Positions 1,333 through 61,781 of a stretch of DNA of 64,000 nt are shown here, piece after piece. Source of the stretch: Ulota crispa. Taxonomy: Eukaryota; Streptophyta; Bryopsida; Orthotrichales; Orthotrichaceae. Where the stretch lies: positions 8,556,001-8,620,000 of the forward strand of contig OY987250.1 of NCBI GenBank assembly GCA_963920765.1, read 5' to 3'. The notes below the pieces were generated by a model, which worked only from the letters and a program-made list of their open reading frames with translations, was not told the DNA's origin and ran no database searches. The number at the start of each line of letters is the position of its first letter. Positions within the stretch are counted from its first letter, which is position 1. Position numbers and translations under genes: made by a program.

Positions 1333-2270
1333 TTAACCCCTAAAGGACCATTGTTCATTCAAAGGGCAAATGGGATTTTGGGCATACACCTTTGAATAAG
1401 CTACTTTGTATGATTTTTTGAAACTTTTATTGAAGGTGAGGAATTTAGAGATTGACTTGGGCATCTAAATTTTTCTTCATTTTGACATTTGACAAAGAAA
1501 TTACGCAAAAATTTGTCAAAACTAGGGGAGGAGGGGCACTTTGGGCAGCCCAAAAAACTTCTTTGAAAATTGTACTTTTTAAAAATAAAAATTTGGAATT
1601 GGTTCTTTAGATTTTTTTATATGTGTGAAGCTTTGAATCATTCAACTTCAATCAATGACATGAAAGTTATGAGGAGTTTTTGTTTGCGAGCAGTTATGGA
1701 TTCTCTACTCTAAAATAAACTTTGAAGTCCTTTATTTTACTCAATTTTCAATATTTTGGAAAAAAATTAAACCAAAGGAAATTCATTGTTTATTACAACA
1801 TTATAACCATTGGGATTTTTTTTTTTCATTTTAATAATAAAATTCTTAACAATTTAGTGTTTTTACTCATTCTCTACTTCTTCTTACTTATTGTTTTTTT
1901 CCCATGTGTTGTATAGTTCCAATTGATTTGAAAATTCTCCCACATATACCTAACTTGATCTCCTACATGGAAAAATAAAGGCACAACTTTTGTAGAGCAA
2001 TTTTTTTCATGTAAGAAGGGTCAAAGGCTTCTGAAATTTACTAGCAGCAAGGAAAAAACTGTTTTTCCTTCACTTCAGATGTAAACATCTCCCTCCTCTC
2101 CATCTAGAATGACCTGATTTTTTCCCCATAAGTACCTCTTCTAGTCTAAGGCAAGACCCTATGGTTGGATTTTCAAAAAAATAACAAAAGAAACCTACTT
2201 ACTCATCTCCTAGAAGTGGTAGTTTACAATAATGTTGACAGAAAAAAGGGCTTGGTCCTTTAGGGGTTAA
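1333..2270 (+). mobile_element. TTAA-flanked non-autonomous transposon, family A copy 1
   Basis: TTAA stands at 1333-1336 and 2267-2270. Between them the element starts CCCCTAAAGGACCA and ends in its exact inverse, a perfect 14-bp terminal inverted repeat. The interior is shared with copies at 9544, 12023, 16278 and 36962. TTAA duplication plus CCCC ends is the piggyBac pattern (inference from family knowledge). The interior has only short AT-rich ORFs (for example 1722-1916) with no transposase motif, so the element would need a transposase from elsewhere. Confidence 0.85.
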
Positions 2271-3425
2271 GGTTCAACTTTAGAATTGCCAAGCATGCTT
2301 AACCTCTGCTCTTGGGGAGATCACTTAGGGGGTCCATTAAAAACCACTTGCATTAAGATTTTGGACTCCCCGTCTTATGTTCTAAAACTTAAATAGAAGA
2401 AAAAGAAAAAGACATGAGTAGATTCTCCTATTTTGAAAATTTATGTTTTGAATTGACAATATTTTTACTTGTAATTTATAATTAGTTACAAATTTTTGAC
2501 GTAAAATGATACACTATAGAGCTAAAAATAACTTTTACACCCCTATTTTATATAAGAAAAAATTGTTTAAAAATTACTCCAAAAATTCTTTAAAAAGATG
2601 CTTTATCGGAAGTTTATATTTCTTGAATACCAATGCAATGGTCATCTCAATGTGTTCTCTATAAATATTTGAGTTGAAAAACATGCCATTTTAGTTCACT
2701 TTTCAACCTTCTCTAGAAATGATTTTAATAAATTCTTTGGATTAAAGATTTTGGCAATAGAATCCTATAGTTGTGGTTAAAAAATGCTCAAAATCATAAG
2801 TTGAAATCATGGTTATTTAAAAGTAAATAGGGGGAGAAAATATCACTTCACTCACATGGTTAGTTATAGATACACTAAGTGATCTCCCCAAGCCTTTGCT
2901 ACAATTCAACCATGCAAGTGTGCATTTTATGCAGGCGCGAGTTTTGTACAATTGAACCTAAATTGCACAAAAACAAGCAATTCATTTTGTGCAGGCTTGC
3001 ATTTTGCGCAATCAAACCTAAATTGCACAATAACAAGCAATTGAGCACTAGGCTGCACAATTTTGTGCACAACAACAAGTGCACAAGTAAAGAACTTCAC
3101 AATTTGGCAATAATTACCATGAGTGAGAGGGCTAGAGGAGGCGCTTCGCCGTTGCGAGTATACAACAAAGGTCAACACCTCAATAGGTAAACCACTAAAC
3201 CAAAACTCCAATCATTCAAGAAATAAATGAATTTTAAAGGTGCAATACAAAATTTGTTTTGTTTATTTTAGTTCAAGATATTGTGGATTACAACATTTAA
3301 ATACTGACTCTTACAATGTGAATTATGTGTCCAAAATTTCAAGGAGATTTTGTTAGTACATAACTTAGTTTTAAAGAGAGTGTGAAGGATATTGCATTAC
3401 AAACATTCCACTATCAAGTTGCTAC
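2271..3425. other. No gene seen; holds a small tandem repeat
   Basis: AT-rich DNA. The only structure is two 60-bp tandem units at 2931-2990 and 2991-3050 (core CCTAAATTGCACAA). The overlapping short ORFs on both strands are by-products of that repeat. Confidence 0.6.
2931..3050. repeat. 60-bp tandem duplication
   Basis: Two adjacent 60-bp units, each starting GCAGGC and sharing AACCTAAATTGCACAA and AACAAGCAATT, with roughly ten mismatches between them. Confidence 0.75.
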
Positions 3426-3835
3426 TTAACCCTTTAAGGACCGTGGTTGATTTGGGAGGTGGGCAATCCTTTGTATGTCCATTTGGGGGAAATTTTCAAA
3501 CTCGTGAATATAGATGTCCACAACATATTTGAGTGTACAGATGGAAGTGTCTTGCAGGGTTTAGTGTTATGCATCATGAATTATGCTCACTCTTTAGTTG
3601 TTATGACCATCTTTTTGCATTTATTGGTGTAATTTCAGCCGGTACTCTTTTAGTTTTTCAACCCTCTAGTCACATGCCACCTCAAATTGGCCTGATTATT
3701 GTCCTAAACTCTTCACTTTCCAATTCCCTAGATCTGTCCCCTTTGCCATGTCATCAAATTCCGTGACATGCTCTCTACAAACTGAAAAGAGTCAAAATCG
3801 ACCATAAATAGGTGGACCGGTCCTTAAAGGGTTAA
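3426..3835. mobile_element. TTAA-flanked element, 410 bp (family Y)
   Basis: TTAA at 3426-3429 and 3832-3835. The ends are CCCTTTAAGGACCG and its exact inverse, a perfect 14-bp inverted repeat. The interior is unlike families A-C in this window. The two short overlapping ORFs inside (3447-3766) show no recognisable domain. Confidence 0.85.
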
Positions 3836-5498
3836 GAGGCAACAAATGGTCATGATTAAACTTCTAATTAGAAAAAAAAGTGAGAAGCATGCCACATTTT
3901 CATACTAATAAAAAAATCCAAATCAATGTGAAGAAATCTTGCACTATTCAAAATCTAGCACAGCTTGATGCAACTTGTATAGTTCACTTCACTGAATGAT
4001 CCATTTGGTAAAAAATGGCTAGTGGTAGGAGCTTTGTTCATTTTTGTTGGACTTTACTTCTAGAATTTTTGCATAGAGAAGTGTTTGGAAAACAATATAA
4101 ATTTTGAGACGGTCAAAGGAAAGGGAAAATTACCAAAAATCATTCTTTATTGTTTGATTGGTATGTTTCATAAGCATAGGATTAGCTCAAATGTACTAAA
4201 ATCAATTCTTTCATGATTGTGATTTGTACAATTACGTTTCAAATAATGAGTAGTGTGTAAAGATCGTTTAATTAAAACAATATGATTATTAGTGAGTATT
4301 TTACAAGAGTTTAGAATCAAGGCATGTTCTAAAGAAGCCAAATTCATCACCAATAAATTCGCGAGTCAATATCGTTGTATTGTGATCAATTTCCAAAGGA
4401 TGAAGCTTGGATTTAGTTGTTCATATTTAACAGTATATAGTTCAAGTTCATTTTTTTCCGTTGAGTACACAGTAACAAAAAGAACTTCAAAAATCTACTA
4501 AATTTTTCTTCGTATAATAATCAAAATGATCAATCCAAATTTGTAGTTATAGTGCCGAATCTCTATGAAAATTTGAAGGAAATATGAACCTCTTTCACAT
4601 CAAATACAAAACCATTGGTGTACATATTGCATATTTAACTAATTCTAGACTATATAAAATCCATAAGTCAAAATATTGAAAGGTATGCAAAATATTTATA
4701 GAATTGTGTCCTTCAAATTTGGGAGATCTCCATTTGTTTTGCAAGCAAAGTTCATAATTACATGAATAGTCCAAATATAGTTCCTAGTATATTTCTACAC
4801 ACTTTGGATCCTATGATAAATTTTTGATGTGCAAGATGGAAAATGTTTGTATTTGAGTACTTTATATATCCCAAGTTCTTTGAATTGTAAGATCTAACAT
4901 GAATTAGTCATCACAAATTTGGCCAAAACACAGACATGGCATATTTAGATAATGTTGAATTGTTCAAAATTCAAAATAATAATCCAAAACAAAAGGTTTG
5001 GAGATACATCCAATGCATTGAGATTTTTTTGGATGTTTACATATGTTATATACAAATCATTGGAGGATCCAAACAAATCATGAGGAGATTTATGCAAACA
5101 TTGTGAGATATATGTCCCTCAACATCCAAATAACTCCTACGGTTTTGTGAACATAGTTTGGAATTACATGAATAGTCCTTATGTTTGAATATGGTATATA
5201 CCAATTCAATCAATAGATTGACATTTGTACTATTTGTTTGATAACAATACCATTGACTATAGTTTGTTTGGAACCATAAAGATAATGATTATATAAATAA
5301 CACCTTAAAAAGCTTTCAAATAGGAGGAGTAAACATTGATGGTTTTTAAAGGTTTGAACTTATAGTAGAAGAATATTGAATTTCAAGAATTTAGATTTTT
5401 ATAGATTGTAAAAATAAGGAAGGGCTAAAATAATAAAAACTGTACATAATTGAACCACTGTGATTGCACAACTTTTATAGATCATACTAATTTGGACA
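3836..5498. other. AT-rich DNA, nothing recognised
   Basis: No ORF of note, no clear terminal repeats. The phrase ATTACATGAATAGTCC recurs near 4757 and 5162, which suggests old repeat debris. Confidence 0.5.
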
Positions 5499-5736
5499 TT
5501 AACCCTTAAATAACCAACCAACCATAGGACATAGTATGTATGCTGTATAACTGGCATTTGCTACCAACAAAAACTTTTAATTTGGGATCTTGATTAGCTC
5601 ATTATAACTGCATTGATTTATATTCTAACTTCTTTGTTGATCTCAAATGTAGTAAAGGTGTGGATGCATTCCAAATACAAGAGAAATACATCATATTGTA
5701 CTGTTTGTAGCCGTTAGTTGGTTGTTTAAGGGTTAA
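5499..5736 (+). mobile_element. TTAA-flanked MITE, family B copy 1 (238 bp)
   Basis: TTAA at 5499-5502 and 5733-5736. The left end CCCTTAAATAACCAACC mirrors the right end with one mismatch (CCCTTAAACAACCAAC). The body matches copies at 19986 (same orientation) and 21688 (reversed), including AACTTCTTTGTTGATCTC. Confidence 0.85.
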
Positions 5737-6606: not shown

Positions 6607-6710
6607 TTTACCCATTTTTACCCTCAACTAATGCGGCTCGCAAACACCAAGTTTATTATAAAAGAAAACCCAACTCATGCAATTGGTTTTGCATTTTTAC
6701 CATCGACTTT

Positions 6711-6860
<150 letters not shown>

Positions 6861-9429: not shown

Positions 9430-10625
9430 GTTCACTAAATATTGCAATTAAGTTGCTCGATACTAATTTCTAGACATTTTTTACACTACATGAATATTTG
9501 TGTTGCTATAGTAATTTTTATTGAAAATTGTATTAAACAATTTTTAACCCCTAAAGGACCATTGTTCCTTCTCGGGACAAATGGGGTTTTGGGCATTCAC
9601 GTATGGCTAAACTACTTTGTGTTATTTTTTGAAACTTTTATGGAAAATGGGGAATTCAAATATCTACGTGGGCATCTAATTTTTTCTTCATTCAGACTTT
9701 TATTGAAGAAGTTATGCACAAGTTTCTGAAAAACAAGGGAGGGCGAGCAACCAAATTTCATTTTTTAAAAATAAAAATCTGAAATTGGTTCTTTAGATTT
9801 GTACATATGTAGGGAGCTTTGAATCATTCAATTTTAATTTATGAGTGAAAAGTTTTAGTTTGCTGGCAGGTATGGGACTCCCACACCTCCGTTCCTTTTG
9901 CTTTTGGTGCTTTACTTTTTTGAGCTCTTTGTGAATTTTTTTTTGTAGTTTTTTTTTTCCAAGTTGTAGTAGACTAAGATTCCTTGGTTTTCGCCATTTG
10001 GATCATAGCAATTCAAATTTCTGAATTTTACATATGTCCTCCAATTTTGCCTAGAATGTATGCAAATTTGATGGCCTTATGGCATTGCAAGATTTTACAA
10101 AGTATGATTGACACCTCCAATTCATTTGAAAATTCTCCCACACTTACCTGACTTGATCTTCTACATGGTGAAATTAAACCTCAACTTTGTTTAGAGCAAT
10201 TTTTTTGATTTTGAAGCAATCAAAGGCTTCTCAAATTTTTGGGCAGCACAGGAAAAACCTTTTATTTTCACTTTTGATGTCAATATCTCACTCTACATCT
10301 TGAATGAGCTGATTTTTTTCCCACAAGTACCTCCCATAGTCTAGGGCAAGATCTTACAGTTGGAGTTCCAAAAAAAGCTTTTTTTCTTACCTTTCTACTC
10401 ATTCCCCCAAAAATGGCAGTTTTCAATAACTTTCACAGAAAGAAGGACTTGGTCCTTTAGGGGTTAAAGGCCCTCACAACAACAATGAAGTTGAAAATAA
10501 ACACCAAGTTGTAAAAACCATGTGAAATTAAAATATCTTGTAAGTTGTACGTGCCTCCAAGTAGCCAAGTGATGAGTCATGAGGTAACTAACCAAGGTAA
10601 GGCAACCTAAAAGCAATATTTAGGT
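9430..10625 (+). repeat. Dispersed repeat T, split by a TTAA element
   Basis: 9430-9547 and 10468-10625 together align with 30634-30900 and 51035-51310 (TTTCTAGACATTTT, TTTACACTA, CAACAACA, CCTCCAAGTAGCCAAGTG, GGCAACCTAAA). Family A copy 2 sits between the halves at the T-repeat's own TTAA. Confidence 0.75.
9544..10467 (+). mobile_element. TTAA-flanked transposon, family A copy 2 (924 bp)
   Basis: TTAA at 9544-9547 and 10464-10467, perfect 14-bp ends CCCCTAAAGGACCA. The body follows copy 1 (for example TTTTTTGAAACTTTTAT). It is inserted in repeat T: the unoccupied T copy at 51134-51137 carries a single TTAA at the same point, so the target duplication is seen directly. Confidence 0.92.
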
Positions 10626-12022: not shown

Positions 12023-12938
12023 TTAATCCATAAAGGACCAAGCAACTTTTACACCAAAAACTTTTCAAGACTGTCATTTTTAGAGCATCAATCAAATCTG
12101 AAAAAAAAACATTTTTATGCATCTGTAACCATAGGATCTTATAGTAGGATAGTTTTAGGAGATTTAAAAAAAAAATCAGAATTTTTCAACGTGTGGATTG
12201 GAAGATAGAACCTATTGAATATTTAGAAACGTCTTGTGAAAAACCAGGCAGCTACCCTTTAGAAGGTGAATTTTCTAAGGAAAGAATGCCGTGTGGGTGG
12301 TGCTTCTCTAGATTCCTTGTTCCACCTAAGTAGGGTACATGTCAAAAAAGTTTTAAATCATTTGAAATTGTATAATATATGGGGAAAAAAAAGTAAGTAA
12401 AAAGAAGTAGAGTATGACTCAAAACACTAAATTGTTAAGAATTCCATTATGGAAATGAAAAATGCCAATCCCAATGGTAATAATGTTGTAATAAACAATT
12501 TACATCCTTTAATTTTGTTTTTTTTTTAAGAAATGATGAAAATGAGTCAAATAAAGGACTTCCAAGTTTGTTTTAGAGTAGAAAATCCATACCTACCCGC
12601 AAACAAAAATTCCTCATAACTTTCATCTCATTGATCAAAATGGAATGCTTCAAAGCTTTCCACTTTCACATAAATCTCTTGAACCAATTTTGAATTTTTG
12701 TTTTTGAAAAAAAAAATTTCTAAAATCTGCATGGACTACGTGCTGAGTGAATAAAACAACATATTATGCTTTCTTATTCATAAGTCCAAATGTCATGATA
12801 TTTAGTGCATATGAAAGATAAACCTTGTTCCTGCATTCTATCAAATTGTTAGCCTAAAATATGAAAATCTCCAATCATAGGTATCTGCCCAAAATTGCTA
12901 TGTTGGTAAAATAAGGGTGTTGGTCCTTTAGGGATTAA
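12023..12938 (-). mobile_element. TTAA-flanked transposon, family A copy 3 (916 bp, reversed)
   Basis: TTAA at 12023-12026 and 12935-12938. The ends TCCATAAAGGACCAA and TCCCTAAAGGACCAA (inverse) differ by one base and have lost the first C. The body is the reverse complement of copy 1. It is inserted in the 26-bp tandem array. Confidence 0.85.
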
Positions 12939-13472: not shown

Positions 13473-14445
13473 TTAACCCCTCATCGCGTAAGGAGACAAT
13501 TTGTGTCCTCTAGAATTCCATCACTTCAATTTGAAGTGCTGTAATTTTTGCAATTATGGTTCAAATTTAATAAATTTTGTTGTCAAATTTGCATACTAGT
13601 CTTGTTTTTATGGTAGAATTTTCAAATCAATTTAAGACATAATGAGTTTGTAAAAGCCATTGAAAGTTCATGGGGTTAATTTGTGTTCACCACACTCCAT
13701 TGTGATGGTTGCAACTTTGGAGGCTTGTATATTTTTCATTGTATGTTTGTTTTCAACAAATTTTGTTGGGTTTTGTTCTCCTTAAAGTCTAGTAATTGTG
13801 GTAAAATTTTCATGTCAATCCAAGTTGTCTTGAATGTTTGCAAGCAACTCAAAATTCAAAATCCACAAATTTTTGCATTACAGTGAACTTTGGTGGCTTA
13901 TAACTTTTTTGTAAAAAGTTTATTTTTATCATTTTTATCGGAAAAGTTGCATACTAGTCTAGTTACTATGGTTAAAATTTCATATCAATCCATGTAGTTA
14001 TGAGCAAATGAGAAGCATTTTAGTAGAGGGAGGTTTAGCCATAGATATGATTTTTTGCTACTTTCTCCACTATTTTTTTACAATTCAAAACAATTTTGCA
14101 AACAAAATGAGTTTAATGATTGATTTTTTATTTCACCAATTTGTTTGAATATTGGTTTGAATCACTTTTCATTTTAAATTTTTTCATTTAAGTAGGTTTA
14201 GAGATCAACTTTCACCTCCAAAAGTGTTTTTAGGAAAAATTCAGCATTTTTTTCAACACTAAAACATTATAATCTTCCAATCTATGAGGTCAAATGACCC
14301 CAAATTTGATCCGCATCCTTTGCAACATGCACACTACAAGACCATACAGGTAATATTTTCATACTCCACTATCATTCAAACTTACAACACTTAAAGAGCA
14401 AGGATGCCTTTTAGCCTCTTTGGACCCTAGGCAATGAGGGGTTAA
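13473..14445. mobile_element. TTAA-flanked element, family N (973 bp)
   Basis: TTAA at 13473-13476 and 14442-14445. The ends are CCCCTCATCGCGTA and the inverse of TAGGCAATGAGGGG, sharing CCCCTCAT and then diverging. The interior has internal near-repeats (CTAGTCT, GTTTTTATGGT-like) around 13590, 13785 and 13950 and no coding domain. A family distinct from A-K in its interior. Confidence 0.75.
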
Positions 14446-17695: not shown

Positions 17696-17950
17696 TTAAC
17701 CCCTAAAGGATTTTGTTGTATGGTGTATGTCCTCATGTGTTGTATATGGATGGGGTATTTGAATAACACACAAATTTCATTGGAACTCTAAATTTTAAGC
17801 AAAGTCATAAACATATTATCAGTCAAGTAAGATTTTGGAAAATTTTGACCCTTTTTTTAAAACCATTATTTAAGCACTAAATGGTCCTTGTACAAATATA
17901 GACAACACTTTTAGTAGGCAACACCTTTAGAGAACACCTTTAGAGGTTAA
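17696..17950 (+). mobile_element. TTAA-flanked MITE, family C copy 1 (255 bp)
   Basis: TTAA at 17696-17699 and 17947-17950. The left end is CCCCTAAAGGATTTTG; the right end is the inverse of CCTCTAAAGGTGTT. The body matches 20769-21015 (TGTGTTGTATA, GATGGGGTATTTG, CTTGTAC.AATA). Confidence 0.8.
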
Positions 17951-19985: not shown

Positions 19986-20219
19986 TTAACCCCTAAAGGA
20001 CTATAGGGCATAGTATATACGATGTTGTATAATCCATATTTGCTATCAGTAAGAAGTTTTAATTTGGGATCTCAAGTAGCTCATTAGAACCGCTTTGATC
20101 TATTCTCCAACTTCTTTGTTGATCTCAAAGGCAGTAGAGGTGTGGATCCATTCCAAATACAAGAAAAATACCCCGTATTGTATTGGTCGCAGCGGCACGC
20201 TGTGTTCTTTAGGAGTTAA
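19986..20219 (+). mobile_element. TTAA-flanked MITE, family B copy 2 (234 bp)
   Basis: TTAA at 19986-19989 and 20216-20219. The left end is CCCCTAAAGGACTA; the right end is the inverse of CTCCTAAAGAACA. The body is collinear with 5499-5736. Confidence 0.85.
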
Positions 20220-20290
20220 GGACCTTAGGATTTCAACGTTATAGGGTTTTTAGTGCACACATAACCAATCTTGCCACCAAGATCATTTTA

Positions 20291-21067
20291 AGGGCAACTT
20301 TACACTACAAGTTGAAGCTATTTTTATCCTTTTTGCACTTTTAATGCTATCATTTCATTGATTATTTTTTTGAAAATGGCCTCAAGGCCTTTATAACAAG
20401 AGTAAAGACTAAAATTTTAAATCATATTTTAATATTTAAAAATTAAAATCTAATACAACTCCATTTTTAGAAATTAAATCTTCCATAAATGTGAAGTCAA
20501 TTCTTGGCTTGAGGACCATTGTTAGGTTTTATTACAATTTGATTATTTGAATTAAAAACATTCTTTTGAGATAGTCAACACCATAGGATGGAATAGAAAA
20601 ATTTCAATGGTTTATAAAAACAATAATCCATTTCCTCTTAAAATTTTCAAATTTTGCTCTAGTGGCCTCAACTTTTTGGCCTGAAGGCCTTTATGCATAG
20701 GAGAATTGACCCCTATTATACTCATATTCTAATGGGCACTTAGGACTGTTGCCCTTTGGGCTGAAATTTTGGCACCTAAAGGATGTTATTGTATTGTTAC
20801 ACTCTCGTGTGTTGTATAATGATGGGGTATTTGGTTAGCACATGAAACCCATTGAAATTGTAAATTTTAAATGAAGTCACAAACATACTACCAATCACCT
20901 AGGATTTTTTGGATTTTTTTTTTACATTTGTCATAAAATCATTTTTTCATGTACTAAATGGTGCTTGTACGAATACAAGCAACACTTTTGGTATGCAACA
21001 TCCTTTAGGGGTTAAAATAGCCCCAAGTTTTCATGGCCTCGATTCCTAGTGTAAAGCCGTCCTGCCC
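20291..21067. mobile_element. PIF/Harbinger-like element W carrying a nested TTAA MITE
   Basis: The left end is AGGGCAACTTTACACTAC (after TTA, 20288-20290); the right end is the inverse of GGACGGCTTTACACTAGG, ending GCCC before TTA. Both resemble family D termini. The interior has paired AAGGCCTTTAT motifs (20387, 20686). Family C copy 2 lies inside. Confidence 0.55.
20769..21015 (+). mobile_element. TTAA-flanked MITE, family C copy 2 (about 247 bp)
   Basis: The right end CCTTTAGGGG plus TTAA (21012-21015) is intact; the left has decayed to TTGG followed by CACCTAAAGGATG. The body matches 17696-17950. It is nested in element W. Confidence 0.7.
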
Positions 21068-21687: not shown

Positions 21688-21920
21688 TTAACCCTAAAGG
21701 ACTGAGCGTGCGGTTGCGATTAGTATAATATGGGATATTTTTCTTGTATTTAAAATGGATCCACACCTTTACTACATTTGAGATCAACAAAGAAGTTGAA
21801 GAATAGATCAAAGTCATTCTAGTGAGCTACTTGAGATCCCAAATTAAAACTTCTTACTGGTATCAAACACGAATTATATAGCAGCGTATATACTATATCC
21901 TATGGTCCTTTAAAGGTTAA
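21688..21920 (-). mobile_element. TTAA-flanked MITE, family B copy 3 (233 bp, reversed)
   Basis: TTAA at 21688-21691 and 21917-21920. The left end is CCCTAAAGGACTGAG, the right end the inverse of CCTTTAAAGGACCATA. The body is the reverse complement of copies 1 and 2 (GAGATCAACAAAGAAGTTG). Confidence 0.85.
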
Positions 21921-35960: not shown

Positions 35961-36014
35961 GATACATTGGTAGTGGTCACATGCATAGCACCTTTGCTCC
36001 TTCTCAAATTGATT

Positions 36015-39980: not shown

Positions 39981-40298
39981 CTAACAGATTTGACGACGGT
40001 TTAAAATATGAGTAGACATGAAATATTTGAGGTTCTTGTGATCCGGGTATACTGTCACCTGATGTGCGGCGCCTTCAAGTAAATGACGCCATTCCTGAAA
40101 AGAGTCCATAATAGCAAGTAACTCTTTGTTATAGATTTCATGATTGATCTTTGCGGCGCTAAATTTATTTGAATGAAAAGCAATTGGATGAAGTTTTCTG
40201 TCTTCTTCTTGCTGCAATAACATTACACCCAATGCAAAATCTAAAGCATATGTCTTTATAAAAAAAGGCTTGGAAAAATCTGGATGAACCAATATCAA
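39981..40298 (-). pseudogene. RNase H domain fragment
   Basis: It reads FSKPFFIKTYALDFALGVML, then HPIAFHSNKFSAAKINHEIYNKELLAI and DHKNLKYF, the Ty3/gypsy RNase H signature. The first catalytic Asp (usual T-D-A-S) is replaced: the sequence has TYALD. Catalytically dead by that reading. Confidence 0.88.
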
Positions 40299-40527
40299 GG
40301 CTATAATAAAAGCTTTCTTTAATATTCAAAAGACCTAGTCTGCTTTTGGATTCTACTTCGACTTATCTTTGCATGTAAGCCGTATAAATGGAGTAGCAAT
40401 TTGAAAATAGTTTTTGATGAAAATTCAATAGAAATTTGCAAAACCAAGGAAACATTGAACATTGCGTATCGTCTTTGGTGTTGTCCAGTCTAATATAGCT
40501 TAATTTTTTTTGAAATCCATAGAAATG

Positions 40528-41340
40528 CTATTGTTCAAAATAATGTAATAAAAAAAATTCTACTTCAGTAGTGTGAAAAACACACTTTTCAAGTTTAGCG
40601 TATAGCCTGACATTGCAAAGCTTTTCAAGTACTAGCTTCACATGTTTTCTATATTGAATTGTATCTTTGTAATATATTAGAATGTCGTCCAAGTAACAAA
40701 TAATAAAATTGTCCAAGAAATCTTTGAATATATCATTCATGAGATGCCAAAAAATAACTGGTGCATTTATAAGTTCAAAAGGTATAATGTCATATTCAAA
40801 ATAGTCATACCTTGTTTGAAAAGCTGTCTTTCATTTGTAACTTTTTTTTATTTGTACAAGATTATAAGTTCTTTTTAGATCAATTTTTGTATAAATCTTT
40901 GCTTGTCCGACTTGATTCAAAAGTCCGCTGATTAGAGGTAATAAATATCAATTTTTGATTGTTACTTTGTTGAGATTGTGGTAGTCTATGCACATACGTA
41001 AAGATCTATCTTTCTTCTTCACAAATAGAATAGGTGCACCAGTTGGAAACTTTGAGTGTTGGATGAAGTTTTTTGCCACATTCTTGTCAAGATATTTTTT
41101 TAATGCAAAGAGCTCATTTTGTAACATATTATATATGTGACTAAAAGGTAATTGAGCATTCTTTTGAAGGTTGATTGCGCAATCATATGACCGATGCTTG
41201 GACAAAATGTCTGTATTTTTCTTTTCAAAAACGTCTTGATATTCCTTGTATTCCTCTGGAAGCAAAGTCGTTGTAGTGGTTTGTTCAGATGTTAGAATTG
41301 CATAAGCCACAAATATATTAGTATTTTTAGCAGCTTTCAT
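40528..41340 (-). pseudogene. Reverse transcriptase, two fragments
   Basis: 41340-40948 gives the N-terminal part (EYQDVFEKK, then [25 protein letters not shown]). 40740-40528 gives the catalytic part with CYLDDILIY (YLDD near 40690). FELINAP lies just before it in the same frame, upstream of its Met. Between them the frame is lost. Confidence 0.9.
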
Positions 41341-41554
41341 AAACGGTTAGACTCCAAAAAATAAAAGTTTTGACGTTTTCTGGCTAGAAAGGTCTTTGGC
41401 TCTAATCACTGATGTACACGTAGAAATTTGTTCAAGTAGAATGGTAATCCCACGATTTGCCTAATCAATTTGAAGATTAAATTTTTTGAACCATGAAAAT
41501 TTTAAAATGATAGGACTACATGGAGAACAAATTACATTGTAAATTACACGAATA

Positions 41555-45978: not shown

Positions 45979-46604
45979 TTAATGCCCAAGGCATCCAATA
46001 TTGGTGATTACAAACTTTGAAGATAAATAAAACCTTATCAAATCACTAATTTTAATTAAAAAAATTCAATACAAGTATGTTTTGAATTTTTTTTAACATC
46101 ATAAATCTAAATTGGAAAACAAAATTTGAGGATTTCTCTATGCACAATTTTGTACACAGATGTGCATTGCAATCTTGAGTTCTTTAGTGTTTGAAAATCT
46201 TGAAAACAAGCCTAAAATCCACTAGAGCTTGTAGAAAAATTCACATTACAAATTCACAAAAAAAAAGTAGGAGTAGATTTTCAAAGCCATAAATCAAGTA
46301 AAGTTAGGCGTGTAATGACCTTAAGCCTCATATTCTTTTGGTAACCAACTTTTTAGATTTGACATGTCCAAAGAGGATTGAAAGACTTCAAGTCATTTTC
46401 ACGATTTGAACACCCTCATGTTCAAACATTATAACCTTTCAAACTACAAGTGATATTGTTGTGTTTTCCTTTTTCACATAATCTCTAACATTTCAAATTT
46501 AAATTTGTATAGTTACATCTATATTTTTTTTGATGAAATTCATGAAAAATGTTGGTTGATTGTTTCATTTCATGAAAATATTAATAAGGGTATTTAGGGG
46601 TTAA
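45979..46604 (+). mobile_element. TTAA family H/K, right-arm copy
   Basis: Right end TATTTAGGGG plus TTAA (46601-46604). At the left, TTAA (45979-45982) runs straight into TGCCCAAGGC: the first 8 bases of the terminus present in the left arm are missing. Confidence 0.8.
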
Positions 46605-46658
46605 AATCAATTTGAGAAGGAGCAAAGGTGCTATGCATGTGACCACTACCAATGTATC

Positions 46659-47214
46659 TTAACCCCTAAGCGCCCAATTGACCATTTTTTGGTAGCTGCC
46701 CTTTTTTTCGGGCTACACGAGACAAAAAAAACTTTTTTCAAAAAAACTTTTTTCAAAAAAACTTTTTTTTTGTAATAGAAAATCAAGTCTACTTTCCAAC
46801 TTAACTTTAATCATGTCAATTCAAGTTAAACTCCTCCAAGGAGAATTTTTCAAAGACAAACACTTCAATATTTGCTAGTGTTGTAGAATTTACTATTACA
46901 GGAAGCTAATGATGTTCCCTCCTTTCAAAAGATAGCATTTTTTAAGTTTAGGATAGAATGTCTATTTTTAACCAATCCTACCAAATTTTGAAATCTATGA
47001 GTAAAATTTGTAATTTTGGTGAATATTAAATGGTAAATGCTTCTAAATTCATAAAATAAGAGTAAATTTTTTTTTGAATATATGACCATATGGACAATTG
47101 CTAAACATCATGATTCTTGTTTTCTCTTTTGAAAAAACTTCATTGAAGTTACAAGAGTATTTTTTTTTAATGCATTTATGTTTTGCCCTTACCCCTTGGG
47201 CGTTTAGGGGTTAA
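46659..47214 (+). mobile_element. TTAA family G copy 3 (556 bp)
   Basis: TTAA at 46659-46662 and 47211-47214. The ends are CCCCTAAGCGCCCAA and the inverse of TTGGGCGTTTAGGGG. Same length as the left-arm copy. Confidence 0.88.
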
Positions 47215-47744
47215 CAAAAAAAATCAAGAGTTCACAATCAACTATTTTTGAATAGTACAACTTTTTTTACTAATTAGCATGCAAAATCATTTCTGAACAT
47301 ATGGGGTTTACTTATGCCAAGACCCTAACCCCAAGAGTTGCCTTATGTGACCCATGCATGTCCCATGCCAATAGCACAATTCTGCATTATAATTTTCATC
47401 AAATGAATGAAACTAGACTCAAGGTGATCAGAAAAAAAAAAGAGTAGTTGCCTTGCCTGGACCAGCTCGAACTAGCCTAGACCAAAGCAACCCCAAAGTC
47501 TCCCACGGGTGGCCCGCCATCAGGCTTGCGTGGCCCATAGGGAAGACCAAAAAGGCCATGGAAGGACATGCCCCGGACCCTAGACCCCTGAGCCTGACCT
47601 GCTGGTTGAGGGCCGGGTTATCTGTGGGAGACTCAGGCTAGAGCCTGCCAGCTCAATTGCTCTAGCTTAGTATGCATTCATGTTTACTAAGACTAGAAAG
47701 GGTTCAAGCTCCAAGGACATATTACGTTAAAATGTGCCCTCATT

Positions 47745-48029: not shown

Positions 48030-48905
48030 TTAACCCCTAAATGCCTACGGCACCAAATTTTGGTGTCCACAATACTTTGAAATCTAATAAACCTAACGAA
48101 GTTGCAAATTGTAATAGTTAATATTTTTTAAATATTCTTTTTGAAGTCTAGTTTTAGCTTCAATAATCTGATTTTGCAAATGATTGATTACGATTTTTCT
48201 AATCAAGATTTTGTGCACATTTGTCCATTGCAATCTTGACTCCGTGTAGTGTTGAGGGCTCTTGGGAATGAGCCTTAAATACACTAGATTTTTGAGAAAA
48301 AAAATTCACATTAGAAATTCATTTGAAAAAATTGTAGAGTAGACTTTGAGAAGTCATAAATTGATTGGGGTTATGCATGTTAGGCTCTTTAACCCCTAAG
48401 CGCCCTAGGGGCCAAAATATGGCCTCTCGGTTTTGAAAAATGTCTAGGTTTGACCATTATAATCTTTTCAATTGTCCGGTGAAAGGACATGTCTTTTTTC
48501 TTGGAGCTCAAGGCCTATGTTCACTACCAATCAATACGGTCAATTTTTGTGGATCTCTTTGAATTGATAGTTTGATTGGAATGAATTCCAAAGGGTCTGG
48601 ATTTGAGTGAACTTGCACTAGGCGCTCAAGGGTTAACCTCATATTTTTTGGTAACCAACTTTTTAAATTTGACATGTGAAAAGAAGATCAAAAGCCTTCA
48701 AATTAATTTCACGGTTTTAACACACTCATGATTAAACATTATAATCTTTCAATCCATAAGAGATGTTGTTGTGATTTCTTTTCTAAGGTGATTTTAACAT
48801 GTCTAGTTTGATTATATACAGTTACCATTTAAAAAGAACTAATACAACTTATCAAAATGCTGACTTTTTGTTCAAATTAGAGCAAATTCCTAGAAACTGA
48901 GGAAC
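48030..48905 (+). mobile_element. TTAA family K copy 1, truncated, with a nested J element
   Basis: TTAA at 48030-48033, then CCCCTAAATGCCTACGGC. The body is collinear with 49378-50030 but is split by 48389-48636 and loses its right end near 48905. It sits in the minisatellite. Confidence 0.8.
48389..48636 (+). mobile_element. TTAA-flanked MITE, family J (248 bp), nested in K
   Basis: TTAA at 48389-48392 and 48633-48636. The ends are CCCCTAAGCGCCCTAG and the inverse of CTAGGCGCTCAAGGG. The related element at 61133 has a single TTAA (61487-61490) at the same point, so the insertion duplicated TTAA. Confidence 0.9.
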
Positions 48906-49254
48906 TATGGGTCAAAACGGCATGAGGAAGGAGCCCCATTGCCCCCAAATATTGGAAATCTCCCTTTGACAAAGGGCAACTGCAATCCACAAATGATCTT
49001 AGCTCTTGTGTTTGATACCACCAAGTAGGGAATACCAAAACAACCATGTAATGTTGTGGCCTGGGCCTAGGGAATACCAAAAAGGCCATGCCCCGGACCT
49101 TGGGCCCCTGAGCCTGACTTGCTGGTTGAAGGCCGGGTTCTCTGTGGGAGACTCGGGTTAGAGCCTGCCAGCTCAATTGCTCCAGCTTAGTGTGCATTCA
49201 TGTTTACTGAGACTAGAAAGGGTTCAAGCTCCAAGGACATATTATGTTAAAATG

Positions 49255-49377
49255 TGCCCTCATTAGTGAGTGTTCAGAGGTTATGGTGCAATACAAAAGA
49301 GGTAGGATGTGATACAAAAGAGGTTATGGTGTGATACTAAAGAGGGAGGGTGTGATATTAGAGAGGTGGGTGTGATA
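49255..49377 (+). repeat. Minisatellite Z, second block
   Basis: Same units as 47745-48029 (GGTTATGGTG, GTGATACTAAAGAGG, GTGATATTAGAGAGG). The preceding GC-rich block 49060-49255 also repeats 47560-47745. Confidence 0.85.
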
Positions 49378-50030
49378 TTAACCCCTAAATGCCTACGGCA
49401 CCAAATTTTGGTGTCCACAATACTTTGAAGTCCAATAAACCTAACGAAGTTGCAAATTGTAATAGTTAATATTTTTTAAATATTCTTTTTGAAGTCTAGT
49501 TTTAGCTTCAATAATCTGATTTTGCAAATGATTGATTATGATTTTTCTAATCAAGATTTTGTGCACGTTTGTCCATTGCAATCTTGACTCTGTGTAGTGT
49601 TGAGAGCTCTTGGAAATGAGCCTTAAATACACTAGATCTTGGAAAAAATTCTACACTAGAAATTCATTTTTAAAATTTGTAGAAGAGATTTTGAAAAGTT
49701 GTAAAGTGATTTGAGTTATGTATGTTATGCACTTTGACCTCATGTTATTTTGGTGACCAACTTTTTAGATTCAACAAGTGAAAAGAAGATTGAACAGCTT
49801 TAGTTGTTTTTGCAATTTTAAAACCCTCATGATTAAGCATTATAATCTTTCAATCCATACATGATATTGTTGTGTTTTCTTTTCCTATGTGCTCTCTAAC
49901 ATATCTAGTTTGAATTTTTACAATTACAATCTTGAATTTTTTGATAAAACCTATTAAAATGGTGGCTTTTTGTTCAATTTAAAGAAATTTCCTATGAGCT
50001 CAAAATAGGCCTCAGGCATTTAGGAGTTAA
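49378..50030 (+). mobile_element. TTAA-flanked transposon, family K copy 2 (653 bp)
   Basis: TTAA at 49378-49381 and 50027-50030. The ends are CCCCTAAATGCCTACGGC and the inverse of GCCTCAGGCATTTAGGAG. It is inserted in the minisatellite at GTGATA-TTAA, and the array resumes after it. Confidence 0.9.
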
Positions 50031-50390
50031 AGGGGGTGGGGTGTGATATTAAAAAGGTAGGGTGTGATATTAAAGATGTGAGTGTGATATTAAAGAGGTG
50101 GGGTGTGATATTAAAAAGGTGGGTGTGATATTAAAGAGGTGGGGTGTGATTTTAAAAAGGTGGGTGTGATATTAAAGAAGCTAATGTTACTACTAACCGT
50201 ACTACTAAATTCTCAATTACCTTTGTAATATCATATCCTAACCTCTTCAATATCACATCTCCATTCTCTGTGATATTATGGATACATACATAGTGACTTT
50301 TGTAATATCACATTTGACCTCTTTAATATCACACCCTACCTTCTTTAATACCACATCCTACCTCTTTAAAATCACAAAATTTGCTTAAAT
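50031..50390. repeat. Minisatellite Z, third block with a strand switch
   Basis: 50031-50180 carries about eight GGTGTGATATTAAA units on the plus strand. 50220-50390 carries the inverse (TAATATCACA, CCTCTTTAATATCAC). The block therefore can fold back on itself. Confidence 0.85.
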
Positions 50391-50612
50391 TAGAATTTAT
50401 AATTTAGTAGTGGGAGGAGGTTAGTGATTAGCGTGCTAGAAGAGAGTTACAAGATCACTTGATAACTTTTGTAAAATGAGGCCATAACCAGTTTGAGTAG
50501 TCAACCACCTTTGGAGGTGGGTGATAAACTTATCATACTTGATAACTGATAACTTGCAAAAGTGGTTGAGTTATGGGATGAACCCTACCTTATTCATCGG
50601 GTAGGAAATACT

Positions 50613-51034: not shown

Positions 51035-51310
51035 TTTAGGGTGCCCTACACTAGTTTCTTGACATTTTACACAATATAAACATTTACCGCTGCTACAGTT
51101 ATTTTCATCAATAATTTTTGCAATGAACATTTTTTAAAGGGCTTGACAACAACAGCAACAACATTGCAAAATAAATAAATTTCGAGCATTCAAGATGTGA
51201 ACCATGCAAAATCCAAGTATCCGGAGAGTTGCATGCACCTCCAAGTGGTCAAGTGATGATTCATGAGGTAAATTTCTAAGGCAAGGCAACCTAAATGCAA
51301 TATTCAATGT
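51035..51310 (+). repeat. Dispersed repeat T, copy 4 (unoccupied TTAA site)
   Basis: Full-length relative of 9430-10625 without the insertion. At 51134-51137 a single TTAA lies where family A copy 2 sits in the other copy (TTTTTTAAAGGGC.T.ACAAC). Confidence 0.75.
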
Positions 51311-51794
51311 AGATGTAATATAAAGTTTACATGCAACTTTGACTGCATGTACTTAAGAAGACCAATTCAAAGTGAGAAATGTTGGATTTTGCTGGTGAAG
51401 TTCAAATCTTTTGGCACACAAGGTGTAGGTGAAGAATATGTTGGCCAAAATGTGGGAGCGTGTTGTGATTGATGAGAGGAATAGGAACATGCATAATTAC
51501 AACATATAGGATAAGGGCTTCACGCAAGGGGCATTCTCACTTTTAAGTCATTGGGAACAAGGGTAAAGCTTGAATAAACAGCTAGTGCCGCAATTGTGGG
51601 ATTGCCTATGCGGGAGGCCCTTATCTTGCATAAATGTTGCTTGAAGAAAATATTGCCACTAATCCTTTTTGTTGCAAGAGTTGTGATGCTGAGAAAAAAA
51701 CCATTTTTTAGGGAGAGTTGATTCTTACCACAGCTAAGCCCTTGACATCCCTAGCAAACTCTTTCACCACAAACTTTTGTCCTAGCAATTGCAG
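51159..51794 (+). repeat. 636-bp direct repeat, copy left of the gap
   Basis: It reads as identical to 51995-52630 and stops exactly at the first N. Content: the end of repeat T plus unannotated DNA with no recognisable gene. Confidence 0.93.
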
Positions 51795-51994
51795 NNNNNN
51801 NNNNNNNNNNNNNNNNNNNNNNNNNNNNNNNNNNNNNNNNNNNNNNNNNNNNNNNNNNNNNNNNNNNNNNNNNNNNNNNNNNNNNNNNNNNNNNNNNNNN
51901 NNNNNNNNNNNNNNNNNNNNNNNNNNNNNNNNNNNNNNNNNNNNNNNNNNNNNNNNNNNNNNNNNNNNNNNNNNNNNNNNNNNNNNNNNNNNNN
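51795..51994. other. Assembly gap, 200 N
   Basis: Exactly 200 unknown bases, a conventional placeholder length. Translated frames across it are meaningless. Confidence 0.99.
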
Positions 51995-52630
51995 CAACAT
52001 TGCAAAATAAATAAATTTCGAGCATTCAAGATGTGAACCATGCAAAATCCAAGTATCCGGAGAGTTGCATGCACCTCCAAGTGGTCAAGTGATGATTCAT
52101 GAGGTAAATTTCTAAGGCAAGGCAACCTAAATGCAATATTCAATGTAGATGTAATATAAAGTTTACATGCAACTTTGACTGCATGTACTTAAGAAGACCA
52201 ATTCAAAGTGAGAAATGTTGGATTTTGCTGGTGAAGTTCAAATCTTTTGGCACACAAGGTGTAGGTGAAGAATATGTTGGCCAAAATGTGGGAGCGTGTT
52301 GTGATTGATGAGAGGAATAGGAACATGCATAATTACAACATATAGGATAAGGGCTTCACGCAAGGGGCATTCTCACTTTTAAGTCATTGGGAACAAGGGT
52401 AAAGCTTGAATAAACAGCTAGTGCCGCAATTGTGGGATTGCCTATGCGGGAGGCCCTTATCTTGCATAAATGTTGCTTGAAGAAAATATTGCCACTAATC
52501 CTTTTTGTTGCAAGAGTTGTGATGCTGAGAAAAAAACCATTTTTTAGGGAGAGTTGATTCTTACCACAGCTAAGCCCTTGACATCCCTAGCAAACTCTTT
52601 CACCACAAACTTTTGTCCTAGCAATTGCAG
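51995..52630 (+). repeat. 636-bp direct repeat, copy right of the gap
   Basis: It begins at the first base after the gap (CAACATTGCAAAATAAAT) and ends GCAATTGCAG, the same final bases as the left copy. Most simply an unmerged overlap of two contigs. Confidence 0.93.
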
Positions 52631-53322
52631 AATTTGATCAACATGATTAGAAATGTTGTTTCAATATAGTACAAATATTCTATCTTGAGGTTGTGAGGTT
52701 CTACAAGGTGAATAAAGGGTGCCAAACCTGGATGTTTTCTAGAGATTCCCACCCGATGACTAAGGTAGGGTTCATCCCATAACTCAACCACTTTTGCAAG
52801 TTATCAGTTATCAAGTATGATAAGTTTATCACCCACCTCCAAAGGTGGTTGACTACTCAAACTGGTTATGGCCTCATTTTACAAAAGTTATCAAGTGATC
52901 TTGTAACTCTCTTCTAGCACGCTAATCACTAACCTCCTCCCACTACTAAATTATAAATTCTAATTTAAGCAAATTTTGTGATTTTAAAGAGGTAGGATGT
53001 GGTATTAAAGAAGGTAGGGTGTGATATTAAAGAGGTCAAATGTGATATTACAAAAGTCACTATGTATGTATCCATAATATCACAGAGAATGGAGATGTGA
53101 TATTGAAGAGGTTAGGATATGATATTACAAAGGTAATTGAGAATTTAGTAGTACGGTTAGTAGTAACATTAGCTTCTTTAATATCACACCCACCTTTTTA
53201 AAATCACACCCCACCTCTTTAATATCACACCCACCTTTTTAATATCACACCCCACCTCTTTAATATCACACTCACATCTTTAATATCACACCCTACTTTT
53301 TTAATATCACACCCCACCCCCT

Positions 53323-53975
53323 TTAACTCCTAAATGCCTGAGGCCTATTTTGAGCTCATAGGAAATTTCTTTAAATTGAACAAAAAGCCACCATTTTAAT
53401 AGGTTTTATCAAAAAATTCAAGATTGTAATTGTAAAAATTCAAACTAGATATGTTAGAGAGCACATAGGAAAAGAAAACACAACAATATCATGTATGGAT
53501 TGAAAGATTATAATGCTTAATCATGAGGGTTTTAAAATTGCAAAAACAACTAAAGTTGTTCAATCTTCTTTTCACTTGTTGAATCTAAAAAGTTGGTCAC
53601 CAAAATAACATGAGGTCAAAGTGCATAACATACATAACTCAAATCACTTTACAACTTTTCAAAATCTCTTCTACAAATTTTAAAAATGAATTTCTAGTGT
53701 AGAATTTTTTCCAAGATCTAGTGTATTTAAGGCTCATTTCCAAGAGCTCTCAACACTACACAGAGTCAAGATTGCAATGGACAAACGTGCACAAAATCTT
53801 GATTAGAAAAATCATAATCAATCATTTGCAAAATCAGATTATTGAAGCTAAAACTAGACTTCAAAAAGAATATTTAAAAAATATTAACTATTACAATTTG
53901 CAACTTTGTTAGGTTTATTGGACTTCAAAGTATTGTGGACACCAAAATTTGGTGCCGTAGGCATTTAGGGGTTAA
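53323..53975 (-). mobile_element. TTAA family K copy 3 (653 bp, reversed; arm partner of copy 2)
   Basis: TTAA at 53323-53326 and 53972-53975. Same ends and length as 49378-50030. Near-identical apart from a few bases (AACTTTGTT here, AACGAAGTT-type there). Confidence 0.9.
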
Positions 53976-54447
53976 TATCACACCCACCTCTCTAATATCA
54001 CACCCTCCCTCTTTAGTATCACACCATAACCTCTTTTGTATCACATCCTACCTCTTTTGTATTGCACCATAACCTCTGAACACTCACTAATGAGGGCACA
54101 TTTTAACATAATATGTCCTTGGAGCTTGAACCCTTTCTAGTCTCAGTAAACATGAATGCACACTAAGCTGGAGCAATTGAGCTGGCAGGCTCTAACCCGA
54201 GTCTCCCACAGAGAACCCGGCCTTCAACCAGCAAGTCAGGCTCAGGGGCCCAAGGTCCGGGGCATGGCCTTTTTGGTATTCCCTAGGCCCAGGCCACAAC
54301 ATTACATGGTTGTTTTGGTATTCCCTACTTGGTGGTATCAAACACAAGAGCTAAGATCATTTGTGGATTGCAGTTGCCCTTTGTCAAAGGGAGATTTCCA
54401 ATATTTGGGGGCAATGGGGCTCCTTCCTCATGCCGTTTTGACCCATA

Positions 54448-55324
54448 GTTCCTCAGTTTCTAGGAATTTGCTCTAATTTGAACAAAAAGTCAGCATTTTG
54501 ATAAGTTGTATTAGTTCTTTTTAAATGGTAACTGTATATAATCAAACTAGACATGTTAAAATCACCTTAGAAAAGAAATCACAACAACATCTCTTATGGA
54601 TTGAAAGATTATAATGTTTAATCATGAGTGTGTTAAAACCGTGAAATTAATTTGAAGGCTTTTGATCTTCTTTTCACATGTCAAATTTAAAAAGTTGGTT
54701 ACCAAAAAATATGAGGTTAACCCTTGAGCGCCTAGTGCAAGTTCACTCAAATCCAGACCCTTTGGAATTCATTCCAATCAAACTATCAATTCAAAGAGAT
54801 CCACAAAAATTGACCGTATTGATTGGTAGTGAACATAGGCCTTGAGCTCCAAGAAAAAAGACATGTCCTTTCACCGGACAATTGAAAAGATTATAATGGT
54901 CAAACCTAGACATTTTTCAAAACCGAGAGGCCATATTTTGGCCCCTAGGGCGCTTAGGGGTTAAAGAGCCTAACATGCATAACCCCAATCAATTTATGAC
55001 TTCTCAAAGTCTACTCTACAATTTTTTCAAATGAATTTCTAATGTGAATTTTTTTTCTCAAAAATCTAGTGTATTTAAGGCTCATTCCCAAGAGCCCTCA
55101 ACACTACACGGAGTCAAGATTGCAATGGACAAATGTGCACAAAATCTTGATTAGAAAAATCGTAATCAATCATTTGCAAAATCAGATTATTGAAGCTAAA
55201 ACTAGACTTCAAAAAGATTTTTTCAAAAATATTAACTACTAAAAATGATCATTTTGTAAGGTTTTATTTAACTTCAAAAATTGGTTGAGGACGCATTCTG
55301 TCGTCAATGTCGTTTTGAGGTTAA
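54448..55324 (-). mobile_element. TTAA family K copy 4, truncated, with nested J
   Basis: Arm partner of 48030-48905. Its outer end differs: CGTTTTGAGG then TTAA (55321-55324), so the terminus is either a diverged K end or a recombinant. It abuts a Tourist-like element. Confidence 0.65.
54717..54964 (-). mobile_element. TTAA family J copy 2 (248 bp, reversed)
   Basis: TTAA at 54717-54720 and 54961-54964. Arm partner of 48389-48636. Confidence 0.9.
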
Positions 55325-57326: not shown

Positions 57327-57934
57327 GAGCATCTCTTGCAGCACGTTAAAACAACCCTTTGCGTTCAACCCGTAACAGCTTCTACGATTCAAGTCTCCAA
57401 CAGCAATATACTTGTTCATGTGCAGGAGCGGGGCCATTCAAGTTTAGCCACTTTCACATCAAATTTGAGCTTTCTCTAGGCCCCCTTCATGGTCCTTGCC
57501 AAGCATTGTTCACACACTGTTCACGTTGCAACTCCAAATGTACCCTTGCAATTTGTTGTAACACAAGTACATGCCTTCAAACTTTGCGGATTGCAAGGGA
57601 ACTTCAAGCCCTGTTGTGCTACTTGCTGCTCCTGTCCCCTCCAAACCTAGTTTCCAGGCGCTTCTTTAACCCCTAAGTGCCCCACATGCCAAAATGTGGC
57701 TTCTCCATATTTGACAATTTGTTGTCTTTGACCGTTATAATCTTTTAATCCATGCAACAAAAACTTACCAAATTTTTCATGCATATGTGGACCCTAAGCC
57801 TAGTGCAATATCAACAGCTAACTCTTGTAGATGTTGTTTTTGAACTTGTGGTGCCAAATTGTTTGCAATGAGGTCTAACACTGCACGAATTTGGTCTGGG
57901 CACTCAGGGATTAAACATGCTGCAGGAGATGCTC
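57327..57934 (-). mobile_element. Tourist-like MITE F, copy 3, split by a J element
   Basis: GAGCATCTCTTGCAGCACG at the left; at the right the inverse of GAGCATCTCCTGCAGCATG: 19 bp with two mismatches. The flanks are TTA and GTA. The body is the reverse complement of 55325-55659 (CAAACCTAGTTTCCA). The J-family element at 57666-57914 sits inside at TTAA. Confidence 0.75.
57666..57914 (+). mobile_element. TTAA-flanked MITE, family J copy 3 (249 bp), nested in F
   Basis: TTAA at 57666-57669 and 57911-57914. The ends are CCCCTAAGTGCCC and the inverse of GGGCACTCAGGGA. The length and the body (AAAAT.TGGC.TCTC, GACC.TTATAATCTTTT) match 48389-48636. Confidence 0.85.
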
Positions 57935-60605: not shown

Positions 60606-60848
60606 TACGCTGGCCCCATGACCTCAAAAATGAGGTGCTCAAAAATGAAAAAGTTCTTGTTTGACTTGTTATAATCTTTCTATTGGTATGGTCAAACCAT
60701 TAGTCTTTTCCCTATACTTTGGAGCTTGTCTCACCTACCATTGAATACGTTTAGATTTTGTAAATCTTGTTTGTGATGACAATTTGGTTGGATTGAGTGT
60801 GAGTGGGTCTAGATTTTGATGAATATGGGCTGGGCGCTCAGGGGTTAA
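60606..60848 (+). mobile_element. TTAA family J copy 4, left end decayed
   Basis: Right end GGGCGCTCAGGGG plus TTAA (60845-60848). The body follows family J (GGTTGGATTG, GGGTCTAGATTTGA-like, TTATAATCTTT). The left terminus is not recognisable near 60606. Confidence 0.6.
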
Positions 60849-61132
60849 TGATTGGAGAATTTTGTGGTCATGCAAAATTTTAACATCACAATTAAAGTAT
60901 GTCAATTGGGTCTAAGAAAGGACCCTGGTGAAAAATGACCCCCTCATTAAATTCATGTTTGGATTCAAAAACCCTCATTAAATCTATACTTGTGGGAAAG
61001 ATAAAATTGACCAACATCAACACAAGGACAAATAATTACTTTTACCATTTTTGTAGAAAAAGTTGAGATTTTTCACCCTAGCCCCCACAAATATGTATGT
61101 GCAATAAACTAGGCTCTAAGAAAAGGGATAAA
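60849..61132. other. No gene recognised
   Basis: AT-rich; ACCATTTTTGTAGAAAAAGTT near 61042 recalls fold-back element P. Confidence 0.4.
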
Positions 61133-61781
61133 TTAACCCTAAATGCCCAAGGCACCACATTTTGGTGTTGACAATACTTTGAATTTCTACAAATCTAACT
61201 AAGTTCTTATTTGAAGTAGTGAATAAATTTGAACTATTCTTTTTGAAGTCTAGTTTTAGCATCAAAAATTCAATTTTGACATTTTTTGATTATGGTTTTT
61301 CTAATCAAGATTTTGTGCGAGGGTGTCCATTGCAATTTTGACATTTTTAGTGTTGAGAGCTCTTGGAAATGAGCCTCAAATACACTAGATCTTGGAGAAA
61401 ATTTTACTCTAGAAATTCATTTAAAAAATTTGTAGAATAAATTTTGTAAAGCTATAAATTGAATGGAGTTGTGCATAATATGTTCTTTAACTTCATATTT
61501 TTTTGGTGACCAATTTTTTAGGTTTGACATAAGAAAAGAGGAATGAAAGACTTCAAGTCAATTTTAGAATTTTAACACCCTCTTGATTAAACATTATAAT
61601 CTTTCAATCCATAAGGGACATTGTTGAGTTTTCTTTACCTATGTGAACTATAACATATCTAGTTTAAATTTGTATGATTACAATTTTAAAATAACTTATT
61701 CAACCAATCAAAAATTTGGGTTTTTGTTCAACTTAAAGCAAATTTCTTGAACTCTGAAGGGTCTTGGGCATTTGGGGATTT
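61133..61781 (+). mobile_element. TTAA family K, separate copy (about 649 bp)
   Basis: TTAA at 61133-61136, then CCCTAAATGCCCAAGGC. The right end is the inverse of CTTGGGCATTTGGGG, but the right TTAA has mutated to ATTT. The body is collinear with 49378-50030. At 61487-61490 it has the unoccupied TTAA used by the J insertion in K copy 1. Confidence 0.82.

Follow-up and report, generated by a model that had tools for sequence, protein, structure and literature searches.

A 64,000-nucleotide stretch of the genome of the moss Ulota crispa (contig OY987250.1, positions 8,556,001 to 8,620,000), referred to here as the window, carries many short TTAA-flanked elements with CCC-type ends. We consider it highly probable (about 0.92) that these are non-autonomous miniatures derived from piggyBac transposons, of which this land plant genome holds an old and diverse population. 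Their parents would be elements of 5.0 to 5.7 kb with CCC-type terminal inverted repeats, encoding a piggyBac transposase with a three-Asp core and a C-terminal Cys-rich finger. The ends, the TTAA flanks, a transposase lying between such ends, and one deletion derivative inside the window were all observed directly. The transposase would bind the terminal 12 to 13 bp common to many unrelated interiors, as in known piggyBac miniature inverted-repeat transposable elements (MITEs), and would excise the short elements and insert them at TTAA. Of the three transposase lineages, one or more also carry an accessory gene 1.3 to 2.7 kb upstream on the same strand.

A piggyBac transposase in the same genome

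A genome search with the piggyBac domain PF13843 returned 528 first-look candidates, of which 116 were scored. These gave 120 matches over the cut-off, distributed over contigs C1 to C11 and with a best E value of 1.3e-73; none of 14 control genomes had a match. The open frame L042:3228-4655 resembles Trichoplusia ni piggyBac (6x67; E = 4e-20 by phmmer) and piggyBat (9c0f; E = 6e-17). At the three catalytic positions, which we take to be those of the T. ni triad, Asp is present in 30, 25, and 28 of 33 host loci, respectively, the others having N, H, or E; L042 has N at the third. The Cys-rich finger was scored with a pattern of our own over 35 host loci (L019 and L041 being one place) and was found at the C terminus in 15, with a stop inside it in three. 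Sixteen relatives were recovered at E values of 1e-5 or better, all containing PF13843 and sharing 29 to 69% identity. The Cys-rich pattern is present in relatives P0002, P0004, and P0007 and not in P0015 or P0016; the Pfam family zf-Tnp_2 matched P0002 below its cut-off (E = 0.013) and gave no match on P0004.

A phylogeny of 44 rows (33 host loci and 11 relatives) resolved three deep transposase lineages, which contain 10, 13, and 18 rows and have support values of 100/100, 100/99, and 100/98, respectively; the branching order among them is unsettled. The 13-row lineage is composed of the eight closer relatives and five host copies, with P0015 to P0017 placed far outside. In a separate observation, the piggyBac copy at L043:1891-5141 consists of open pieces split by stretches with splice-like borders, and its Cys-rich end lies in another frame; this copy may hold two introns.

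Could these copies be contamination, or the host something other than a plant? The matches lie on 11 contigs, ten of them 15.8 to 41.4 Mb long and the eleventh (C11) longer than 5 Mb, in an assembly totaling 275 Mb. TTTAGGG telomere-type repeats close C1, the listed places all being on C1 near its right end, and the window itself contains a bHLH gene (ORF [open reading frame] 24317-25867; HLH E = 4e-7) that matches the plant bHLH_SAC51 profile at E = 4e-6, below the cut-off of that profile. A foreign or non-plant origin is scarcely credible on this evidence.

Full-length elements and their tie to the window

Six copies of 5.0 to 5.7 kb with matching ends were identified, three at L040, L041, and L044 and three by way of the accessory ORF described below (20 accessory loci were fetched; ends were looked for in three and seen in three). 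TTAA borders 9 of their 12 ends, and the other three flanks are one base off. The L040 element (L040:763-5789; 5,027 bp), whose ends are CCCCTCATCGCC and CCCTTCATTGCC, is flanked by TTAA on either side, and the L041 element, which is 90.5% identical to it over 5,029 columns, occupies a separate site with flanks TTCA and TTAA. The L044 element (L044:995-6650; 5,656 bp) is flanked by TTAA and TCAA. The remaining three, at C6:14250317-14255832 and C7:2695941-2701412 (both TTAA/TTAA) and at C5:138626-144183 (TCAA/TTAA), have ends that are CCCATTAAGGACC or close to it. The preliminary description of the window had put forward piggyBac on the basis of the targets and ends; searching for long elements with these termini and comparing their ORFs with the piggyBac profile produced such elements, and the PF13843 transposases, with their catalytic Asp residues and Cys-rich C terminus, sit inside them, as expected under piggyBac.

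One window element can be connected to these elements by its interior. The minus-strand element at 3426-3835, with ends CCCTTTAAGGACC, matches both ends of the L044 element: positions 3426-3576 correspond to its last 151 bp (68% identity) and 3591-3835 to its first 248 bp (66%). It was derived by internal deletion from a piggyBac element that encodes the transposase, and it is 63 to 70% identical to the ends of the C6, C7, and C5 elements. No other stretch of the window, including 13473-14445, matched the full-length elements at an E value of 1e-3. The element at 13473-14445 has ends CCCCTCATCGC and CCCCTCATTGC, which resemble, as ends only, those of the L040 and L041 elements. The tie to the transposase is thus one that goes beyond the ends for 3426-3835 and consists of the ends alone for 13473-14445, and we infer it for the other window elements.

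A number of observations weigh against the piggyBac interpretation. One end among the six full-length elements starts with TCC instead of CCC. The left end was not recognized in L042 or L043 despite longer flanks, and among the first 30 PF13843 loci, taken with about 1.5 kb on each side, (A/G)GGGTTAA was present downstream in 4 and TTAACCC(C/T) upstream in none; for L040 and L044, longer flanks located the ends further out. No transposase-encoding partner was found for the families ending in CCCCTAA(A/G)(C/T)GCCC or for those with CCCCTAAACGCCC ends, nor was one with exact ends found for the abundant CCCCTAAAGGACC family, to which CCCATTAAGGACC and CCCTTTAAGGACC come nearest. Only 116 of the 528 transposase candidates were scored, and stops interrupt 110 of the 120 scored matches.

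Sola3 and Kolobok also duplicate TTAA, although their transposases are unrelated. As TTAA by itself cannot separate these superfamilies and a partner is known for only a minority of the window families, the window elements might instead be Sola-type (Sola3) or Kolobok transposons, with the piggyBac copies as unrelated bystanders. Having searched with the piggyBac profile and not with Sola or Kolobok ones, we judge this very improbable, because a piggyBac transposase sits within TTAA-flanked elements that have the same type of ends, and the proposal is already contradicted for 3426-3835, an internal deletion of a piggyBac element.

A further feature of the L044 locus is a CCCCTAAAGGACC-type element (L044:6647-7615) that was apparently inserted directly against the right terminus of the piggyBac element, the two having a common TCAA flank.

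Abundance, target sites, and age of the short elements

The window contains 23 TTAACCC ends and 20 GGGTTAA ends. A scan for TTAA-flanked inverted repeats of 60 to 1,300 bp whose 13 terminal bases agreed at 10 or more positions, in which overlapping alternatives and duplicates were counted, gave 34 pairs, 16 of them starting with CC. Twenty order-1 Markov sequences gave a mean of 4.35 pairs (maximum, 11) and a mean of 0.05 with a CC start. A looser scan, restricted to CCC-like starts with at least 9 of 13 bases matched and one flank allowed to deviate, produced 21 pairs, from which 17 non-overlapping pairs were picked by hand. Three of the 17 (46659-47214, 53323-53975, and 54717-54964) are copies of other pairs in inverted duplications of 99.6 to 99.7% identity, leaving 14 independent pairs. 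The TTAA-flanked elements with CCC-type ends that had been noted in the window are real by the end counts, the Markov comparison, and the genome-wide ends given next, but the earlier figure of about 30 elements was too high and holds only if single ends are counted.

Genome-wide, the 11-mer TTAACCCCTAA occurs 34,662 times (17,299 plus 17,363), versus 231 (115 plus 116) for its reversed control. The 13-mer CCCCTAAAGGACC occurs at 9,597 sites, versus 3 for the reversed control, and TTAA directly precedes it at 8,154 of these (85%), versus 0 for the control. This 13-mer forms the ends, a perfect 13-bp inverted repeat, of the non-autonomous element at 1333-2270 (930 bp between TTAA), of which the window holds a second copy at 9544-10467, seen by pair scan and by window self-comparison. 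First-look searches returned 9,581 genome candidates for the 1333-2270 family and 320 for the non-autonomous 13473-14445 element, and 40 of each were scored. Ten copies located by interior similarity, without use of TTAA, have TTAA at 18 of 20 flanks and TCAA at 2; TTAA is present at 12 of 14 ends for the seven other copies of the 1333-2270 family and at all 6 ends for the three other copies of the 13473-14445 family. TTAA thus stands on both sides of many genomic copies, in agreement with the preliminary description.

Among the 40 scored copies of each family, identity to the window copy is 82 to 89% for 1333-2270 and 82 to 87% for 13473-14445 (the window's own copy being 100%), and both families therefore look old. 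The scored copies are mostly broken or old. An active or recently active transposase had been predicted elsewhere in the genome; a transposase is encoded elsewhere, but its activity is unsupported, given the stops described above and the divergence of the short copies.

An accessory gene upstream of the transposase

In L042 and L044, the transposase is preceded by a conserved ORF of about 123 amino acids (L044:1819-2451; loci L066 to L085). When the genome was searched with the L044 accessory ORF, 39 matches were obtained, spread over 34 loci, among them the locus of the query itself. At 19 of these loci the ORF is less than 8 kb from a listed PF13843 match, and in all 19 it is on the same strand and upstream, by 1.28 to 2.68 kb; the chance of this arrangement is 0.7% per locus. 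The other 15 loci may adjoin PF13843 candidates that were left unscored. All five host copies of the 13-row transposase lineage have the ORF (in L014 it is partial, and in L028 it is assigned by position), and a weak relative of it is found in L040 and L041, which belong to another transposase lineage.

The accessory genes were aligned in 22 copies, those of L042 and L044 and of the 20 fetched loci. In the accessory domain their pairwise identity averages 0.61, and the TGA that closes the frame of about 123 amino acids is kept in 21 of the 22. Beyond it, a tail in the +1 frame contains basic repeats of the KRKYVRK type. The Logan protein P0018, available as protein only, is 123 amino acids long and stops at the same place, ending in ...VFP. 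Pfam searches with 18 accessory members gave nothing above chance (best E value, 0.066; five weak families, one member each). An AlphaFold2 model of the ORF has a mean predicted local distance difference test score of 76.6, and this model was searched by fold. A role in DNA binding or as a transposition helper would be a guess.

The codon-phase tests, which permute columns and ignore relatedness among the 22 copies, show conservation in frame 0 before the TGA (difference of 0.18; p = 5e-5) and in the +1 frame after it (difference of 0.08 and p = 0.003 for columns 417 to 540; p = 0.04 for 417 to 480 alone; p = 0.001 for 540 to 660). One possibility, to which we would give roughly even odds, is that there are two overlapping genes: ORF A, in frame 0 and ending at the TGA, and ORF B, which starts at a +1-frame ATG 37 alignment columns downstream of the first ATG and runs to the basic repeats. 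That ATG is kept (A in 22, T in 21, and G in 22 of 22 copies) although the surrounding frame-0 codons vary. In the overlap there are 29 stops in the +1 frame, close to the 26 in frame 0 and far from the 99 in +2, and past the TGA the +1 frame has 30 stops versus 86 and 124 in the others. However, the second base of +1 codons is the least conserved in the overlap (0.61 versus 0.76 and 0.82), so that the amino acids of ORF B are not conserved there. Stops also fall below those in synonymous shuffles both in +1 (29 versus 44) and in +2 (99 versus 122), and the depletion therefore lacks specificity; +1 stops are absent from the majority sequence, but they are likewise absent from 37% of its synonymous shuffles.

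The gene could also encode one protein by way of a programmed +1 frameshift at TTT-CCN-TGA, a reading that is possible but carries less of our confidence. Phase conservation switches from frame 0 to +1 at the TGA, which is itself so widely kept; the codon that precedes CCN has a wobble T in 22 of 22 copies and, by eye, is TTT in 19; and the end of P0018 at ...VFP falls exactly there. The codon is TAT or ATT in the other three copies, however, and these cannot re-pair as TTT does, while the variation in CCN and TGAY is explained equally well by CpG decay and codon wobble. When one copy was read as a fusion, none of 704 candidates proved related to it at an E value of 0.01 or better, and a frameshift has no need of the conserved +1 start codon. 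Changes of frame by +1 are known at UGA in antizyme and at UUU C in influenza PA-X. The accessory gene would be like these in the direction of the shift, but it lies inside a transposon, all of its copies are decayed, and the data are explained at least as well by an overlapping start. We favor the overlapping ORFs over the frameshift.

More speculatively, this might be a two-component piggyBac, in which an accessory protein with a new, mainly helical domain and a DNA-binding tail, encoded in overlapping or frameshifted frames, is needed for transposition or regulates it. Such a system would have driven the genome's main burst of short TTAA elements. We regard this proposal as tentative and rather doubtful.

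Comparison with known systems

The elements have in common with T. ni piggyBac and piggyBat the PF13843 three-Asp core, the Cys-rich finger, CCC-type ends, the TTAA target, and MITE derivatives. They differ in residing in a land plant, in the length of the elements (5.0 to 5.7 kb), in forming three deep lineages with very many short copies, and in the upstream accessory gene of one lineage. The superfamily is known; what is new is that it occurs in this host, at this scale, and with an accessory gene (the literature on which was not searched), and together these make the elements a variant form of a known superfamily. piggyBac is a main genome-engineering tool in animals. A piggyBac population that is native to a land plant, is diverse, and was once highly successful would mean that the superfamily is able to flourish in plant nuclei, and it would supply plant-adapted transposases together with an accessory gene without a Pfam family.

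Plant MITEs of the five known superfamilies are likewise short, non-coding, bounded by inverted repeats, and high in copy number, whereas the elements described here have a TTAA target and a piggyBac partner. In a 2025 survey that covered 207 plant genomes, four of them from bryophytes, plant MITEs were assigned primarily to those five superfamilies, and the word piggyBac does not occur in the main text (PMC12550479). For plant MITE annotation, the moss elements would constitute a further class besides the five named in that survey. Elsewhere, piggyBac is mentioned in passing for "plants," is reported by one survey from every group it covered, and has been recorded as traces in a fern; no description of piggyBac in mosses was among the matches listed in our literature searches.

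Other elements and features of the window

The pair scans identified further elements with TTAA flanks at 5499-5736 (ends CCCTTAAATAACC and CCCTTAAACAACC), at 12023-12938 (a diverged element with TTAA on both sides; ends TCCATAAAGGACC and TCCCTAAAGGACC), and at 17696-17950 (degenerate; ends CCCCTAAAGGATT and CCTCTAAAGGTGT). They also returned the elements at 36015-36648 (ends CCCCTAAATACCC and CCTCTACATGCCC) and 57666-57914 (ends CCCCTAAGTGCCC and TCCCTGAGTGCCC). The interval 19986-21015, with ends CCCCTAAAGGA, is an element or a nested pair in which 19986-20219 lies inside; in the window self-comparison, 19986-20219 is 85% identical to 21688-21920 in inverted orientation. The looser scan added a degenerate element at 32350-33367, with TTAA on its left and TTGA on its right.

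Three elements are doubled by the inverted duplications: 35405-35960 (ends CCCCTAAACGCCC and CCCCTAAGCGCCC; copy at 46659-47214), 48389-48636 (ends CCCCTAAGCGCCC and CCCTTGAGCGCCT; copy at 54717-54964), and 49378-50030 (ends CCCCTAAATGCCT and CTCCTAAATGCCT; copy at 53323-53975). The duplications pair 35081-36637 with 45982-47537 and 48115-50607 with 52746-55238, and they are either real or an effect of assembly. An identical 636-bp direct repeat (51159-51794 and 51995-52630) surrounds a gap of 200 N bases at 51795-51994, a pattern that would arise if the overlapping ends of two contigs were placed side by side and not merged. Outside the elements, short tandem repeats at 6710-6859 are open in two overlapping frames, and remnants on the minus strand at 39981-41346 resemble, by eye, a Ty3-type reverse transcriptase.

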